64,000 nt of DNA, from contig NZ_CP080203.1 in NCBI RefSeq assembly GCF_020424085.1, positions 1,116,001-1,180,000 of the forward strand, given 5' to 3'. How positions within the stretch are numbered: position 1 is the first letter of the stretch; every line of letters begins with the position of its first letter. This DNA comes from Mycetocola spongiae (GTDB lineage: Bacteria > Actinomycetota > Actinomycetes > Actinomycetales > Microbacteriaceae). Both the position numbers and the translations under genes were made by a program. Below the pieces are notes generated by a model. It was not told the DNA's origin. It saw only the letters and a program-made list of their open reading frames with translations, and searched no databases. Of this stretch, positions 22,701-28,592 are shown piece by piece.

Positions 22701-23402
22701 ATGGATACGGGTTCAATCCAGATACGCCGCGGCGATCGGGCGGGTAGTTCGCGCCCCCGGTACCCCGTGCCGAGCCGGTCCGGCTGGGCGGCACCGCTGG
22801 GACTCTGCCTGGTTGCGACCCTCCTGCTGACGGGCTGCGGGTCGCCCGAAAAACCCCTTACCGCCGCGTCCAATCCGGGCTCAATTGCCAATCTGCCCGT
22901 CTTTGAGGGGCACTGGGCGGAGGATTTTTCCTATCAGTACCGGACGGCACTCTCGGATGACCACCGGCGTGCACTCGCCGATGGAAAAATCAGCGAGGCC
23001 GAATTCGCCGAGGTACAAGACGAGTATCTCGAGTGTGTGCGCGCCACGGGAATCAGGATCACGCCGGATGAGTACGGAGGGGGTGCAAGCTATACGGCTC
23101 CCGCGGGGATGGGTACCGGCACCGCCAACGAGATTGAAACCCGGTGTTCGCACAGCAGCGGGGAGAGCACCATTGGTGCTTTATATCAAGGGACAATGAG
23201 AAACCCGGAGAACCTTGATAACTCACGGATCGTGGCCCAGTGCCTCGTGGATCGCGGTCTTGTAGAGAAAGGCTATAACGCCTCAAGGTACGACGCGCAA
23301 CCGGTGGTCTACGACGATCTAATCGACCAAAACATCGATAATTTCAAGCGCGCCGATGAGTGTATTCGGGACCCGCTGGGGATACTCGCCGCGCACGAAT
23401 AA
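22701..23402 (+). CDS. Bacteriocin-island lipoprotein 1
   Basis: An unrecognised 233-residue predicted lipoprotein. A 28-residue basic n-region precedes a hydrophobic stretch and lipobox LLTGC (Cys46). The secreted part has four cysteines in YLEC, ETRC, AQCLVDRG and DECIRDPLGIL contexts, probably forming two disulfides. Residues from about 68 to the end are closely related to the lipoprotein encoded at 23801-24463, with the same length and no net indels. ACGGAGAT lies 7 nt before the ATG. It is the first gene of the lactococcin-972-like island; a surface immunity or accessory role is possible but unproven. Confidence 0.75.
   Translation: MDTGSIQIRRGDRAGSSRPRYPVPSRSGWAAPLGLCLVATLLLTGCGSPEKPLTAASNPGSIANLPVFEGHWAEDFSYQYRTALSDDHRRALADGKISEAEFAEVQDEYLECVRATGIRITPDEYGGGASYTAPAGMGTGTANEIETRCSHSSGESTIGALYQGTMRNPENLDNSRIVAQCLVDRGLVEKGYNASRYDAQPVVYDDLIDQNIDNFKRADECIRDPLGILAAHE
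22902..23402 (+). repeat. Tandem duplication, copy 1
   Basis: This 501-nt stretch matches 23963-24463 codon for codon with a constant offset of 1061 nt. Long near-identical runs occur at both ends, for example around 22965-23010 and 23296-23395. Confidence 0.8.
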
Positions 23403-23418
23403 CTGCCTGAGCGGGCGG

Positions 23419-23440
23419 GGTGCCCGTCATCTGGGGCACC
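23419..23440 (+). terminator. Weak hairpin after lipoprotein 1
   Basis: A 7-nt stem GGTGCCC/GGGCACC with an 8-nt loop lies 16 nt past the stop codon. There is no T tract. Confidence 0.35.
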
Positions 23441-23636
23441 ACCCACACCCATAATATGCGGACGTTTTGCTCCGCGAGCGGCGCCCTTCTTGTCATCAAT
23501 TTCGCACAGTTTGCGCCAGCATCTCCCTCGATAGGTCCCACCACTCGTCTCGCCCGATAGGTTTACCCATACCCCGAACGGGGAGGGGGCGGATATTCCG
23601 GAGCCTCCTCCTTTATGGAAATCAACGGAGATTAAC

Positions 23637-23801
23637 ATGACACAAGAACCGTTGGCCACGGCCAGGTCACATGATGCCCGGGCCTGCAACGGGCAGATCC
23701 GGTGTGCACGCGCAGACTTCGGGACCCGAGGCAAGACGGCCAACGCCACCCGCTACGGTTCCACCCCGCGCGGCAATACAGCGTACTGGGACAAAAAATA
23801 G
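23637..23801 (+). CDS. 54-residue ORF fused or coupled to lipoprotein 2
   Basis: An ATG at 23637 has the best ribosome site here (AACGGAGA, as at lipoprotein 1) and opens a 54-codon frame ending AAA AAA TAG. The TAG overlaps by one base the GTG that opens the lipoprotein 2 frame. The product is basic, with no recognised domain. Readings: a leader peptide that couples translation; the 5' part of lipoprotein 2 after a frameshift at the A6 run (a -1 shift fuses the frames); or a programmed slip. Expression is not proven. Confidence 0.4.
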   Translation: MTQEPLATARSHDARACNGQIRCARADFGTRGKTANATRYGSTPRGNTAYWDKK

Positions 23802-24463
23802 TGTTTGGGAAACAGATCAGAGCTATCCCCAGGCGATGGCGCCACGTCAGTTATGTTGCACCGATATTGGCCGTGGGGCTCCTGAGCATGAGCTCGTGCG
23901 CCTCCATGCCGCCGGGTTCCTCCGCGGGGCAGCAGCCGCGGGAGCCGATCAACGAACCAAAGTTTGAGGGGCCCTGGGCCGCGGAATTTGAGGATGCCTA
24001 TCGGACGGCGCTCTCCGAGGATCACCGGCGTGCACTCGCCGATGGGGTAGTCAGCGAGGCCGAATTCGCCGAGGTCCAAAACGACTTTCTCGAGTGCATG
24101 CGCGCCACGGGGATCAGCATTACCGCCGATAATCCCGGCGGCGGCTATGACTACACCGTACCCGCCGGCATGGGCGGCGATACCTCCCAGGAGATCGATA
24201 TTCGGTGTGCACATGAGAGCGGTGAGAGTACGGTCGGCGCGCTATATCACGCAATAGGTAAAAATCCGGAGAACCTCGATGAAGCAAAGATTCTGGCCCA
24301 GTGCCTCGTGGATCGTGGCCTGGTGGAGAAGGGCTATAACGCCGCAAGATATAACAGCCAGCCGGTGGTCTACGACGATCTGATCGATCAAAATATCGAT
24401 AATTTCAAGCGCACCGATGAGTGTATTCAGGACCCGCTGGGGATACTCGCCGCGCGGGAGTAG
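23801..24463 (+). CDS. Bacteriocin-island lipoprotein 2
   Basis: An unrecognised 220-residue predicted lipoprotein, paralogous to the one at 22701-23402. The N-terminus has RRWRHVSYVAPILAVGLLSMSSC, a basic region, hydrophobic core and lipobox-like SMSSC (Cys33). The mature part keeps the four cysteines (FLEC, DIRC, AQCLVDRG, DECIQDPLGIL). The start is unsure: this frame has no good ribosome site, and GTG 23801 is chosen because a strongly initiated upstream ORF ends exactly there. An upstream GTG at 23702 is the alternative. The product probably sits on the outer face of the membrane; function is unknown. Confidence 0.65.
   Translation: MFGKQIRAIPRRWRHVSYVAPILAVGLLSMSSCASMPPGSSAGQQPREPINEPKFEGPWAAEFEDAYRTALSEDHRRALADGVVSEAEFAEVQNDFLECMRATGISITADNPGGGYDYTVPAGMGGDTSQEIDIRCAHESGESTVGALYHAIGKNPENLDEAKILAQCLVDRGLVEKGYNAARYNSQPVVYDDLIDQNIDNFKRTDECIQDPLGILAARE
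23963..24463 (+). repeat. Tandem duplication, copy 2
   Basis: Second copy of the 501-nt unit at 22902-23402, offset 1061 nt, with no net insertion or deletion. Confidence 0.8.
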
Positions 24464-24765
24464 CCGTGGGGGCGGGTAGATACCGCCCCAGGACACGCTG
24501 CCAATACCGCCACCGAGAGGAACCCGCAGTGTCTTATTGGCTGCCCGGTGGCTGTGATCGATCGCCGCCTGAAACCTCATCCGAGGGATCCTCACGAGGC
24601 GGAACCGCACCCGCGCCCCGGCAGGTTTGGGTCCGAGGCTGAGAGTTGCGGCCCCGACACTTCCCCGGCCAACAGCAGTCGTCTACCATAGCCCAAAATA
24701 CCCCCAAATGCGGGGCGCGGGGGCAGTGCCCATCCGTTCATATCTCGTGATGAATCGAGGAAATT
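24464..24765 (+). other. 302-bp leader region of the bacteriocin gene
   Basis: No credible gene is seen. It holds a 7-nt stem hairpin GGGGCGG/CCGCCCC at 24469-24489, just after the lipoprotein 2 stop, and is relatively rich in CCC and GGG runs. The last 15 nt supply GAGGAAATT as a ribosome site. A promoter for the bacteriocin gene probably lies here, but no clear pair of hexamers was found. Confidence 0.4.
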
Positions 24766-25083
24766 ATGCAGAAAATACTCGCCGGAACCGTGATCGCACT
24801 CGTCGGTTCCGCCACCATCCTGGGCATCGCGGCGCCCGCATCCGCTCTCCACTCGGAGGACGCCGGCGGCGGTACGTTCGAATATGGCGTCGAGAAATTT
24901 GGCGGTAATACGTGGATCTCAAAGTCCAATTATTGGCATCCCTCGAAGAAGCATCGTTCAACCGCCTGCTACGCGTATACCCACTGCCGTCGATCGGCCG
25001 ATGCCGGGCCCGGTGACTGGGCGGAGGCGGGAATCATCTTTGGGGGCGAGGCCGGCGCACGCGCGTACTGGTACGTATACTAA
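24766..25083 (+). CDS. Lactococcin 972 family bacteriocin precursor
   Basis: A 105-residue secreted peptide precursor. A Sec signal peptide (MQKILAG, hydrophobic core, cleavage after APASA at residue 27) is followed by a mature part of about 78 residues. It matches the lactococcin 972 pattern: a Gly-rich start GGGTFEYGV, SNYWHPSKKHRSTA, then DWAEA and an aromatic end ARAYWYVY. Lactococcin 972 blocks septum formation by binding lipid II. Two cysteines (68 and 74) are unusual because lactococcin 972 has none. GAGGAAATT precedes the ATG. Export-type ABC genes follow downstream. Confidence 0.85.
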   Translation: MQKILAGTVIALVGSATILGIAAPASALHSEDAGGGTFEYGVEKFGGNTWISKSNYWHPSKKHRSTACYAYTHCRRSADAGPGDWAEAGIIFGGEAGARAYWYVY

Positions 25084-25179
25084 CCGCCCGCCCCTGACCG
25101 CACCGAGGTCCCCCGAGCGCGCATCATCCCGTACCGCCCCGAGGCGGGAAAAAGGAACCACCCGGAAGAGAGAAGAATC

Positions 25180-25800
25180 ATGACCCATCGCGGCGCCGCT
25201 GTGCTGATGCTTCCCGTATATATGATCCTCGGGGGTTGCTCCCCGCATTCCACGCCGGAGTCCTCCTCGGTGATGCCGGAGGTGCACGAGTCCACAATCC
25301 CGGAGTTCGGCGGCCCCTATGCCGCGGAATACCGCGAGGCCTATCGCACGCTGAGATCCGAGGATGGGCGCGCCATCATCGCGGATGAGAACATCACCGA
25401 GGCCGAATATGCCGAGATGGTCTCCGCCTATGGTGCCTGCCTGAGATCCTTTGGAATTCGGTTCCGAGGCTATAACCCCGATTTCTCCCACGATTATGAC
25501 CTGCCCGAGGGCGAGCGTCATGAGGACGGGGAAAATCAGCTCAACGAGTGCGCCGCGCGCACGGGCGAGCGGGAGATCAACTACCTCTATTCCAGTGCCC
25601 TGAAAAACCCCGATCATCTGGACCGCGGAACGCTTGAGGTTGCCTGTTTCATCCGGGAGGGCCTGGTCTCCCCCGACTACACGGTAAACCAGTGGCAAAA
25701 AGACAATTTATCCCGGGAATTTCCGATCATCAGATCGGATAAAAGCGCGGCGGATCTCGATAGATGCCGGCGGGATCCCCTTGGCATCATGCCCCGCTAG
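25180..25800 (+). CDS. Bacteriocin-island lipoprotein 3
   Basis: A 206-residue predicted lipoprotein with a short signal and lipobox MILGGC (Cys20). It is a distant paralog of the two lipoproteins upstream of the bacteriocin gene. The order YREAYRTL, ADENITEAEY, GACLRSFGI, LNECAART, VACFIREGLV and DRCRRDPLGI matches theirs, including all four mature cysteines. It lies 96 bp after the bacteriocin gene with a GAGAGAAG ribosome site, and 46 bp before the exporter genes. It uses more AGA and AT-ending codons than its neighbours. Immunity or accessory function is inferred from position only. Confidence 0.72.
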   Translation: MTHRGAAVLMLPVYMILGGCSPHSTPESSSVMPEVHESTIPEFGGPYAAEYREAYRTLRSEDGRAIIADENITEAEYAEMVSAYGACLRSFGIRFRGYNPDFSHDYDLPEGERHEDGENQLNECAARTGEREINYLYSSALKNPDHLDRGTLEVACFIREGLVSPDYTVNQWQKDNLSREFPIIRSDKSAADLDRCRRDPLGIMPR

Positions 25801-25846
25801 GCCCGTCCCGAAAAGAACCATCCCCGCACCGTTTTAAGGAACCACG

Positions 25847-26926
25847 ATGAACCCCACCCCCGATCGATCCGCGCGCAAACCCGGGTTTCGTCTTGCCCCC
25901 GCCGGGATACTGACCCTCGCGGCGGTACTCCTGCTCGCACTGGGTGCGGGCGGGGCCGCGCTCTGGCTGCCATCCGCGACCCCCGAATCGCTCACGGCGG
26001 CCTCCGCCGCCCCGAGCATCGCGGTGAGCGAGCGCGAGTTTTGGGATGAATACCCCGTGGAGCTGATCCCGGTGCGCGGACCCGATACCACGCTGATCTC
26101 CACGGCCAGCGGCAGAATCACCCGCTTCGAGTGCGGGGCTGGCACCACCCTGGTCTCCGGCAGCGCCGCACTGTTTGTGGACGGCAGCCCCGTGATCGCC
26201 CTGGCCACCTCGATACCGCTCTGGCGCGATCTGGTGGTGGGCGACCGTGGCACCGACGTGCAGGCGGTGCAAACCGAACTGGCCCGCCTCGGCCAAGCCG
26301 TGCGCATCAGCGGCACCCTGGATACCGCCACCCTGCGGGCACTCGGTGCCCTCTATACCGCCGCGGGAGAGAGGAGCACGCCCCCGGAATCCGTGGAACT
26401 GGCGCGCATCCTGTGGCTGCCGCGCGCCGCTACCCTGCTCAGTTCCTGCGCGCTGGGTACCGGATCGATGCTCACCTCCGGCGAGGCCCTCGCCGTGAGC
26501 ACCGGCACGCTGTCCTCGGTATCGCTGACCGTGACCCCCACCGAACTCCTTCCCGGACCCCATAACATCGTGCTCGACTCCGTATCCGTTCCCCTCCCCG
26601 AGGAGGGCACCATTACCGAACCAGAATCGCTGGCGCTGATCGAATCTACCCGCGCCTATCGTGCGCTCCTGGCCGATACCGAATCCGAAGCCCAGCCGCT
26701 GAACGCCAAGCTGCGACTGGCCGATGCCCTCCTCGCCGCCGTGGTCCCACCCGGCTCCGTTTATGACCTGGACGGGCAGCGCGGTTGTGTCCTGACCGAG
26801 GGCACGCCGCTGCCCGTGCGCATCCTGGGTTCCCGCCTCGGCCAAACCCTCGTTTATCCCGAGGGCGAGGCCCCGAGCCCCGGCAGCGTGGACCTGCGTC
26901 CCGAGGGGCGAACCGCGTGTCGCTAA
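25847..26926 (+). CDS. Membrane-anchored adaptor with peptidoglycan-binding domain
   Basis: A 359-residue protein with one N-terminal membrane helix (about residues 18-42) and an extracytoplasmic body. In the middle, DRGTDVQAVQTELARLGQAV...GTLDTATLRAL is a peptidoglycan_binding_1-type repeat. The rest resembles the adaptor proteins that accompany MacB-like ABC transporters in actinomycetes. AAGGAACC precedes the ATG. The next gene starts inside its 3' end, so adaptor, ATPase and permease form one unit. It likely links the bacteriocin ABC transporter to the cell wall. Confidence 0.77.
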   Translation: MNPTPDRSARKPGFRLAPAGILTLAAVLLLALGAGGAALWLPSATPESLTAASAAPSIAVSEREFWDEYPVELIPVRGPDTTLISTASGRITRFECGAGTTLVSGSAALFVDGSPVIALATSIPLWRDLVVGDRGTDVQAVQTELARLGQAVRISGTLDTATLRALGALYTAAGERSTPPESVELARILWLPRAATLLSSCALGTGSMLTSGEALAVSTGTLSSVSLTVTPTELLPGPHNIVLDSVSVPLPEEGTITEPESLALIESTRAYRALLADTESEAQPLNAKLRLADALLAAVVPPGSVYDLDGQRGCVLTEGTPLPVRILGSRLGQTLVYPEGEAPSPGSVDLRPEGRTACR

Positions 26927-27531
26927 TCCTGCACGGAATCGGGCACCGTTTTCCCGATTCCCCCTGGCTCTTCCGCGGGCTGGATATCACCCTTCACCCG
27001 GGCAGCACCTACGCGCTGACCGGTCCCTCCGGCTCCGGAAAAAGCACCCTCCTCGGGATCCTGGCCGGCTGGGTGGAGCCCGCCGAGGGTCGACTCGAAC
27101 GCGGTGAGGACACCACCATCGGCTGGATTTTCCAGAACCCCCACGGCGTTGCCCGGCGCAGCGCCGCCGATCATGTAGCCCTGCCGCTCCTGGCACGCGG
27201 GCTCTCACCGCGCGCCGCCGACGCACGCGCCCGCGAACTCCTCGACCGGGTGGGGCTTCGTGACCGCGCCGACCGGCTCTTCCGCGAACTCTCCGGCGGC
27301 GAGGCCCAGCGGCTCATGCTCGCCCGCGGCATCGCCTCGCGCCCCGCCCTCCTGCTCGTGGACGAGCCCACAGCGCAGCTCGACCGCGTCACCGCGGGCA
27401 CCGTGAACGCCGCGCTGGCCGCCACCGCCGATGAACATACCATCGTGATAGTGGCCACCCATGACGCCCATACCCGGGATGCCTGCGATGCACAGATAAA
27501 CCTCGAGACCGGTGTGGAGGGCGAGGCATGA
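26917..27531 (+). CDS. ABC transporter ATP-binding protein (bacteriocin island)
   Basis: A 204-residue ATPase of the LolD/MacB type. Walker A is GPSGSGKST, the Q-loop IFQNP, the signature LSGGEAQRL, Walker B LLLVDEPTAQLD and the H-loop VATHD. GTG 26917 is chosen because GAGGGGCG lies 6 nt upstream and similarity begins there. It overlaps the adaptor gene by 10 nt and the permease gene by 4 nt. It probably powers export of, or immunity to, the lactococcin-972-like peptide; such ABC systems flank lcn972-type genes. Confidence 0.9.
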   Translation: MSLILHGIGHRFPDSPWLFRGLDITLHPGSTYALTGPSGSGKSTLLGILAGWVEPAEGRLERGEDTTIGWIFQNPHGVARRSAADHVALPLLARGLSPRAADARARELLDRVGLRDRADRLFRELSGGEAQRLMLARGIASRPALLLVDEPTAQLDRVTAGTVNAALAATADEHTIVIVATHDAHTRDACDAQINLETGVEGEA

Positions 27532-28592
27532 TGCGCGCCCGCGCCACCTGGCGCGAGGCAGCCCGCAATATCTGGTCGGGCACCACCCGCGCCACCGGTT
27601 TTGGGTTAACCCTCTCCGCGCTCATCGCCGGACTACTGCTGGCCGATCTGGGCACCGTGCGCCAGATCACCGGCGAGTCCGAGGCCTTTGCCTCCGCGGG
27701 AGCCGCCACCCTGATTATGACCGCCGAGGGGCGCGTCGCCGGAGCCGCGTGTGAGGCCCTGAACGCCGTGCCCGGGGTGCGGGCGGCGGGAGCGCTGCGG
27801 GCGCTGCCCGATCCGCTCCGGCTCACGCTCCTCCCGCAGGCCCCGCTACCCCAGTTTGAGTTCAGCGCGGGCTTCCCCGCGCTGCTCCGGGCCGATGTCA
27901 CCGCCTCCGGAGGTGCCCTCCTCTCGAGCGAGACCGCGCAATCCCTGGGCGTGGGCCCGGGCGATACCGTCGGGGCGGGAGAGGAACAGCTAATCGTGCG
28001 CGGCAGCTTCGACTATCCCGAGGACGGCAGGCGGGCGGGGCTCGGTTATGCGGTGCTCCTCGGCTCCGATCGCGACGCCCCCTATGACGAATGCTGGGTG
28101 GATTCCTGGCCACAGGTGCCCGATCTGCGCGGGCTGCTCCTGCTCACCGCGGCCCCGGGCGAGAAGCCCCCCGTGGTGGCCCAGCTCAACTCCCGGCTCG
28201 GCGAGTCCTTCGACGGCGCCCAAAAATTCGAGGACCGGCTGACCCGCTGGGCCGCACCGCTCGCCGGGGTGCTGGGCCTGAGCCTGGGATTCATTGCGAT
28301 CCGGATTCGGCGGCTGGAATTGGCCTCCGCCCTGCACGCCCGCGTCCCCCGAGCCTCACTGGCCACGGGCGCGCTGCTGGAAACGGCGTCCTGGGCGCTG
28401 ACCGCGCCGATCATCGGGCTCGCCCTCACCGCGCTGCTCGCCCGCTCATTCTCCGCGGAGGACGCCGGATCGATCCTCCTCCTCGGGGCGAGAATCGCCG
28501 TGCTCGCGGGCCTGGGGGCGCTACTCGGCGCGCTCCTCTCGCTGCTGCTGGTGCGCGAAAAACACCTATTCCGCTATTTTAGAGAGCGGTAG
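27528..28592 (+). CDS. ABC transporter permease (MacB-like, bacteriocin island)
   Basis: A 354-residue permease. One N-terminal helix (about residues 22-44) is followed by a large extracytoplasmic domain of about 210 residues and three C-terminal helices (about 248-268, 285-310, 320-345). This is the FtsX/MacB topology. It starts in an ATGA overlap with the ATPase gene. The family usually extrudes or pulls substrates from the membrane rather than importing. It is the last gene of the bacteriocin island; a convergent amino-acid ABC importer follows. Confidence 0.85.
   Translation: MMRARATWREAARNIWSGTTRATGFGLTLSALIAGLLLADLGTVRQITGESEAFASAGAATLIMTAEGRVAGAACEALNAVPGVRAAGALRALPDPLRLTLLPQAPLPQFEFSAGFPALLRADVTASGGALLSSETAQSLGVGPGDTVGAGEEQLIVRGSFDYPEDGRRAGLGYAVLLGSDRDAPYDECWVDSWPQVPDLRGLLLLTAAPGEKPPVVAQLNSRLGESFDGAQKFEDRLTRWAAPLAGVLGLSLGFIAIRIRRLELASALHARVPRASLATGALLETASWALTAPIIGLALTALLARSFSAEDAGSILLLGARIAVLAGLGALLGALLSLLLVREKHLFRYFRER

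Follow-up and report, generated by a model that had tools for sequence, protein, structure and literature searches.

Lactococcin 972 (lcn972) is an established bacteriocin, for which the accessible text of one report describes immunity conferred by the whole cluster in L. lactis and names orf2-orf3 as the immunity genes (PMC4055356). In the available part of a second source, the immunity and transport roles of the partner genes of the classical operon are called presumed, experimental data being lacking, and the secretion of lcn972-like bacteriocins is thought to need no machinery of its own (PMC11796350). According to the excerpt available of PMC8538875, full immunity to nisin was seen only when the lipoprotein NisI and the NisFEG pump were present together. 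Here, we analysed a stretch of 64,000 nts of the Mycetocola spongiae genome (contig NZ_CP080203.1, positions 1,116,001 to 1,180,000; hereafter the window), which holds an island where an lcn972-type precursor stands with three lipoproteins (A, B and C), an adaptor, an ATP-binding cassette (ABC) ATPase and a permease (Table 1). The island is probably a modular cassette, in which an NisI-like immunity lipoprotein and a MacAB-like expulsion pump accompany the lcn972-type peptide. Such a cassette was not recognised among the literature records listed, as far as the accessible portions of these papers extend.

Two architectures of lcn972 loci

Like the lcn972-orf2-orf3 operon (pBL1; scbABC), the island has a Sec-secreted PF09683/TIGR01653 precursor followed by an ABC unit. 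The precursor scores above both curated cut-offs (39.3 bits against 22 for PF09683 and 38.0 against 32.1 for TIGR01653) and is assigned by profile membership to the Lactococcin 972 bacteriocin family; at E 0.001, PF09683 matches nothing else in the 3.2 Mb genome. The operon's orf2 (TIGR01654, about 650-740 amino acids (aa) in class I relatives) is replaced in the window by a lipoprotein, an adaptor and a short permease, and, at E 1, TIGR01654 matched neither the permease nor any other window protein apart from the ATPase. The ATPase also differs, since TIGR03608 is only its sixth best family (112 bits against a cut-off of 254.85). The precursor and ABC unit linked to immunity, given in the initial annotation as usual for lcn972 clusters, fit the classical operon; the architecture of the window island is a different one.

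Across the taxonomic family, of which 299 genomes were surveyed, PF09683 matched at 40 places in 32 genomes, with a lipoprotein as neighbour at 23 places and the classical membrane protein and ATPase at 15. At these 15 classical (class I) places, a membrane protein of 645-737 aa is followed by an ATPase-like frame with a Walker A motif; TIGR01654 matched 5 of the 8 large proteins tested and TIGR03608 ranked first for the two ATPases tested, with every one of these scores under its curated cut-off. Of the remaining two places, one (L062) has neither partner and the other (L072) carries a gene with an internal stop. Judged by gene content, the window island is assigned to a class II architecture, not to the classical three-gene lcn972 operon.

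Distribution of the cassette

Adaptor matches in the family were bimodal, 33 reaching at least 298 bits and the next standing at 100, and a lipoprotein lies within the cassette for 32 of these 33; in the exception, genome G108, an lcn972-lipoprotein pair sits on another contig (L074). Among 45 family lipoprotein loci, 23 carry lcn972, 15 other small secreted peptides and 7 none that was recognised, so that a secreted peptide, judged partly by eye, adjoins the lipoprotein in 38/45. The lcn972 loci comprise 19 with pump parts, including L064 with a split permease and no recognised ATPase, and 4 with the lipoprotein but without the pump (L066, L068, L074 and L099). For the first three of these, a pump lies elsewhere in the same genome (L101, L088 and L149, respectively), while L099 (G215) has a broken precursor in a genome with no adaptor match. 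The genome of L064 also has a full-part cassette, L089. Other peptides stand with a pump at 12 loci, one of them (L152) with a diverged pump, and without the cassette pump at 3 (L110, L111 and L117). Finally, the pump occurs without a recognised peptide at 2 loci (L101 and L112), and the lipoprotein occurs alone at 5 (L100, L102, L103, L113, which is a fragment, and L114). The order is inverted to adaptor-ATPase-permease-peptide-lipoprotein in L150, L151 and L118. In L194 the pump genes precede the lipoprotein, and L118 and L194 hold two lipoproteins each.

At the level of the order, 20 lipoprotein regions were retrieved from matches in 297 genomes. Pump genes are present in 17 of them (all except L177, L179 and L193), and a peptide was recognised in six, namely lcn972 in L181 and L182 and others in L180, L184, L190 and L191. 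Only 3 of the 16 PF09683 places in the order adjoin a lipoprotein match, one of the other 13 (in G442) being at a contig end. A lipoprotein specific to lcn972 was rejected on this count and because 15/45 family loci pair it with other peptides. The co-occurrence of lipoprotein and PF09683, which the initial annotation suggested testing, is seen at 23/40 places in the family and 3/16 in the order; of its proviso that homologues should not lie mostly away from bacteriocin genes, the lcn972-specific form fails and the wider form, taking in all secreted peptides, survives, though with 6/20 order loci. Arrays of 3-4 lipoproteins with no recognised peptide, possibly immunity arrays, occur in L175, L176, L177, L179 and L188.

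Other secreted peptides beside the lipoprotein

A fixed rule found a small secreted open reading frame upstream of the lipoprotein in 15/17 non-lcn972 loci against 24/186 control genes (Fisher p 1.4e-10), as well as in 19/21 lcn972 loci and 2/5 lone lipoproteins. It misses L112 and L117 (the L117 peptide was spotted by eye), and its matches in L101, L102 and L103 were judged false by eye, which brings the non-lcn972 loci to 14/17. The peptides fall into group C3 (six rows, one from the order, plus a fragment in L107), group CG (five rows, two from the order) and group X (two rows), with those of L115, L152 and L190 each standing singly. The L110 and L111 peptides are near copies of each other; their placement within C3 was weak and, because a C3 model built without them missed both, they were kept apart. 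In L107 (7592-7924), the C-terminal half of the C3 gene lies in another frame, as the result of a frameshift or a sequencing error.

The non-lcn972 peptides were rejected as diverged lcn972, as profile comparison gave a probability of at most 0.5% against lcn972; among the new families it was at most 8.2%. No Pfam or NCBIfam family matched the scanned non-lcn972 peptides above cut-off, the best E of 7.5e-4 belonging to a match below it. The JUQZ-1 family aligned with one C3 peptide at 18.3 bits (cut-off 40) over residues 1-64, which include the signal peptide, and is kept as a lead, and a match of the L117 peptide to the Pfam histone-like p6 family (19.9 bits, cut-off 25) was taken as chance. 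A genome search with C3 gave 6 matches below E 1e-6, all adjoining a lipoprotein and 5 being the model's own rows; six weak rows (E 0.0029 to 0.0075) were treated as noise. No report of activity of the cassette peptides was found in the accessible parts of PMC4055356, PMC12328743, PMC12188740, PMC11796350, PMC12823222 and PMC8538875. The lipoprotein flags secreted peptides that contain cysteines and have no credible family match, and could therefore be used to find candidate antimicrobials: several unrelated secreted peptides beside the cassette are worth testing for antibacterial action and, if the wider protective role considered below is true, the lipoprotein family would be a hook for the discovery of new bacteriocins.

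Co-divergence of the peptide and the lipoprotein

In 19 lcn972 cassettes, sequence identity correlated with that of the peptide at 0.42 for the lipoprotein, 0.29 for the adaptor, 0.18 for the ATPase and 0.21 for the permease, while the pump parts intercorrelated at 0.63-0.74. Given the adaptor, the partial correlation was 0.36 for the lipoprotein (1/2000 permutations as high) and 0.01 for both the ATPase and the permease. On a tree of the lipoproteins (88 rows, built by a quick method, with 32/85 inner branches weak), the peptide types cluster, with 9 changes against 17.8 after shuffling (43 labelled rows, L110 and L111 being labelled C3 in this count). The lcn972 label alone requires 2 changes against 14.3, and none of 500 shuffles was as low. 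Among 35 complete cassettes, the peptide type changes 8 times on the lipoprotein tree and 11 times on each of the adaptor and permease trees. The co-variation of the peptide with the lipoprotein and of the pump parts with one another therefore points to two modules, the peptide with its lipoprotein and the three pump genes. Because co-divergence singles out one small lipoprotein as the cognate partner, immunity can be tested with a single gene.

Probable immunity and rival explanations

In the cassette that we consider probable, the lcn972-type peptide, presumably toxic, would be released by Sec secretion. Lipoprotein C, on the outer face of the membrane, would bind it in an NisI-like manner and keep it off the maker's own cell-wall precursor, and the adaptor, ATPase and permease would form a MacAB-like ABC pump which, with its adaptor facing the wall, may drive the peptide off the membrane or wall in an NisFEG-like manner. 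The peptide and lipoprotein would evolve as a single swappable module, and the pump, as a second module, may serve other secreted peptides too. The lipoprotein co-varies with the peptide, can have the peptide as its only partner and is also retained where no peptide is left, and therefore resembles an immunity protein, immunity being its most likely role. From the precedent of NisI and NisFEG, and from the adaptor and its peptidoglycan (PG)-binding features, we infer that the lipoprotein captures the peptide and that the pump expels it. Of the immunity or accessory function that had been proposed for the lipoproteins, the immunity part is thus favoured by co-divergence with the peptide, but the tie to lcn972 is lost. 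On a larger scale, it may be, with chances just short of even, that one lipoprotein family and a wall-anchored MacAB-like pump protect the makers of at least four unrelated Sec-secreted peptide families (lcn972, C3, CG and X) across one order, in which case pairs of peptide and lipoprotein would be exchanged while the pump is shared, and immunity arrays would be built of orphan lipoproteins.

Several observations weigh against this explanation. The correlations come from 19 related cassettes, for which the adaptor is a mere proxy for ancestry, and label shuffling does not control for near copies. The signal-peptide rule is home-made and fires at 24/186 control genes and, probably falsely, at L101, L102 and L103. 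In L110, L111 and L117, a different ABC exporter-like gene lies downstream of the peptide-lipoprotein pair (ABC_membrane and ABC_tran in L110 and L117, the two tested). In the order, 14/20 lipoprotein loci have no trusted peptide, and L177 and L179 are lipoprotein arrays without a pump.

Alternatively, the lipoprotein could be an accessory of maturation or export. Outside the membrane, it would fold the peptide or oxidise its cysteines, after which the adaptor and pump would carry the peptide across the wall. Four conserved cysteines in the lipoprotein, its position beside peptide and pump parts in 31/45 family loci (19 lcn972 and 12 other) and a PDB entry whose title names a lipoprotein bound to MacAB-TolC (9qgy) are consistent with such a role. 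We nevertheless regard it as rather unlikely, given that the peptides have Sec-type signals, that dedicated secretion is thought unnecessary for lcn972-like bacteriocins in the available part of PMC11796350, and that lipoproteins persist without a recognised peptide in L100, L102, L103 and L114 and as lipoprotein A of the window.

It is quite improbable that the cassette senses or detoxifies the peptides of competitors, in a BceAB-like manner, the adjacent secreted peptides being decoys or signals. Peptide and lipoprotein co-diverge independently of the pump, an own peptide is present at 38/45 family loci, and lcn972 is itself a bacteriocin (PMC4055356, accessible text). This is set against response-regulator-like genes, identified by eye, beside the lipoprotein arrays of L175, L179 and L188, and the lack of a recognised peptide at 7/45 family and 14/20 order loci. 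A coincidence, by which three lipoproteins of unrelated function lie near a bacteriocin gene, is hardly credible, as the adaptor and PF09683 surveys (32/33 cassettes and 23/40 places with a lipoprotein) rule out a chance neighbourhood, even if weak lipoprotein-profile matches tied to no peptide gene exist.

The lipoprotein family

The three lipoproteins, described as related in the initial annotation, are genuine paralogues, A and B being 63% and A and C 30% identical. On the lipoprotein tree, A and B share a branch from which C is separate and, therefore, probably guard against other peptides. They look like orphan immunity paralogues, which would have been retained after their own precursors decayed or vanished. 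A candidate for such a precursor was located in the gap between A and B, in a segment that had gone unnoticed. With an lcn972 profile made from 37 relatives, the window sequences being left out, positions 23637-23801 match at 23.7 bits, with a domain E of 3e-6 in a search of 1259 six-frame segments. The match covers the C-terminal half of the family and lacks the half with the GGG-W motif; on this profile evidence we interpret it as a decayed lcn972 precursor. Among the 85 loci searched, a second, separate lcn972 remnant was found in the window only; split matches in L061 and L072 were counted as one gene each and not as second copies, and 43 of the 85 loci had no lcn972 match at E 0.01.

No credible Pfam or NCBIfam family was found for 46 lipoproteins scanned at E 0.01, which gave six chance-level member matches to five unrelated families (best E 0.0018). 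Besides the lipobox cysteine, four cysteines are near-invariant (46, 46, 46 and 45 of 46 aligned rows). A lipobox-like motif is present in 40 of these rows, and 5 of the other 6 are trimmed or shifted there; a lipid-anchored surface protein is predicted, as for NisI/SpaI-type immunity lipoproteins. The predicted model is mostly helical (mean pLDDT 91.5). No convincing PDB match was seen and no known fold could be assigned, the best values being E 1.9 (Foldseek), Z 5.2 over 57 residues (VIA), E 0.36 (viral library) and E 0.32 (PDB sequence search). No thioredoxin-like or NisI/SpaI entry stood among the listed Foldseek and VIA matches, which does not exclude such a fold, nor does the missing structural match prove a new one. 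An undescribed surface family linked to bacteriocins, as had been suggested, is thus supported by the lack of a Pfam or NCBIfam match and by the peptides at 38/45 family loci.

Lipoprotein matches occur in 43/299 genomes of the family (E 1e-3), 60/297 of the order and 7/198 of the phylum (E 1e-5), each count taking in the window's own genome. Ten weak family matches (E 4.4e-5 to 9.5e-4) were left out of the follow-up. A distant genome of the phylum, G636 (L210 and L217), has 14 weak matches.

The adaptor, ATPase and permease

NisI with NisFEG, and SpaI with SpaFEG, likewise combine a surface lipoprotein and an ABC transporter beside a peptide acting on a cell-wall precursor. By virtue of its family, the window peptide would share this kind of action and would be expected to bind lipid II and block septation. 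NisI/NisFEG and SpaI/SpaFEG differ from the window in that its pump is MacB-like with an adaptor, in that no lanthionine machinery is present among the seven genes and in that no sequence or fold match to their lipoproteins was seen. With MacAB and other membrane-fusion-protein ABC pumps, the cassette shares an adaptor that matches membrane-fusion proteins, an FtsE/LolD-like ATPase (ABC_tran, E 6.5e-28) and a MacB-like permease; it differs in its dedicated lipoprotein and in its short permease, for which MacB_PCD scores 14.8 bits, below the cut-off of 27.

The adaptor model (pLDDT 91.2) matched CusB best in the PDB (Foldseek E 2.6e-10), then MexA and later MacA, with probability 1.00 for the top rows. 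TM-scores by query length were 0.19-0.33 among the matches listed, so that the match is at the level of domains and not of the whole arrangement; within this limit, the adaptor is predicted to have the membrane-fusion fold of MacAB-type pumps. Where Gram-negative adaptors have a long hairpin, the window adaptor seems to have a PG-binding-like segment instead (PG_binding_1, 13.8 bits, below the cut-off of 23), and PG_binding_3 exceeds its cut-off in the relative L089 (26.8 against 24.6 bits). That the adaptor ties the pump to the wall, as first proposed, is plausible. A link to plasmids was dismissed, as the L089 adaptor was matched in 8 records over only 22-28% of its length, in the region of its PG-binding-like segment.

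Organisation of the window locus

The seven genes first annotated were found again at the same positions, and their tight overlap was verified, with 10 bases shared by the adaptor and ATPase and 4 by the ATPase and permease.

Table 1. Features of the lcn972-type island (window coordinates)
Feature	Position	Strand	Remarks
Lipoprotein A	22701..23402	+	lipobox LTGC; start at 22701 or a later in-frame codon; probable orphan immunity paralogue
Decayed lcn972 precursor	23637..23801	+	C-terminal half only, without signal peptide
Lipoprotein B	23801..24463	+	lipobox SSC; likely GTG start, 1-base overlap with the remnant stop
Lactococcin-972-type secreted precursor	24766..25083	+	signal peptide, GGGTFEYGV, C-terminal AYW
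Lipoprotein C	25180..25800	+	position as in the cassettes of relatives (precursor-lipoprotein-adaptor)
Membrane-fusion-type adaptor	25847..26926	+	PG-binding-like segment between two halves
ABC ATPase	26917..27531	+	GTG at 26917 selected as start
MacB/FtsX-like permease	27528..28592	+	354 aa; by eye, 1 N-terminal and 3 C-terminal membrane helices

The guanine + cytosine content is 60-62% in the peptide and lipoprotein half of the island and 69-72% in the pump half, which is weak evidence for two modules because it varies in the flanks too. The amino-acid transporter operon next to the island is conserved in three congeners, where no lipoprotein match adjoins it, and the location of the island is therefore variable. 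Genes from the opposite flank did not turn up next to this operon in the congeners. A LysE-like flank gene has matches elsewhere that are only 34-36% identical.

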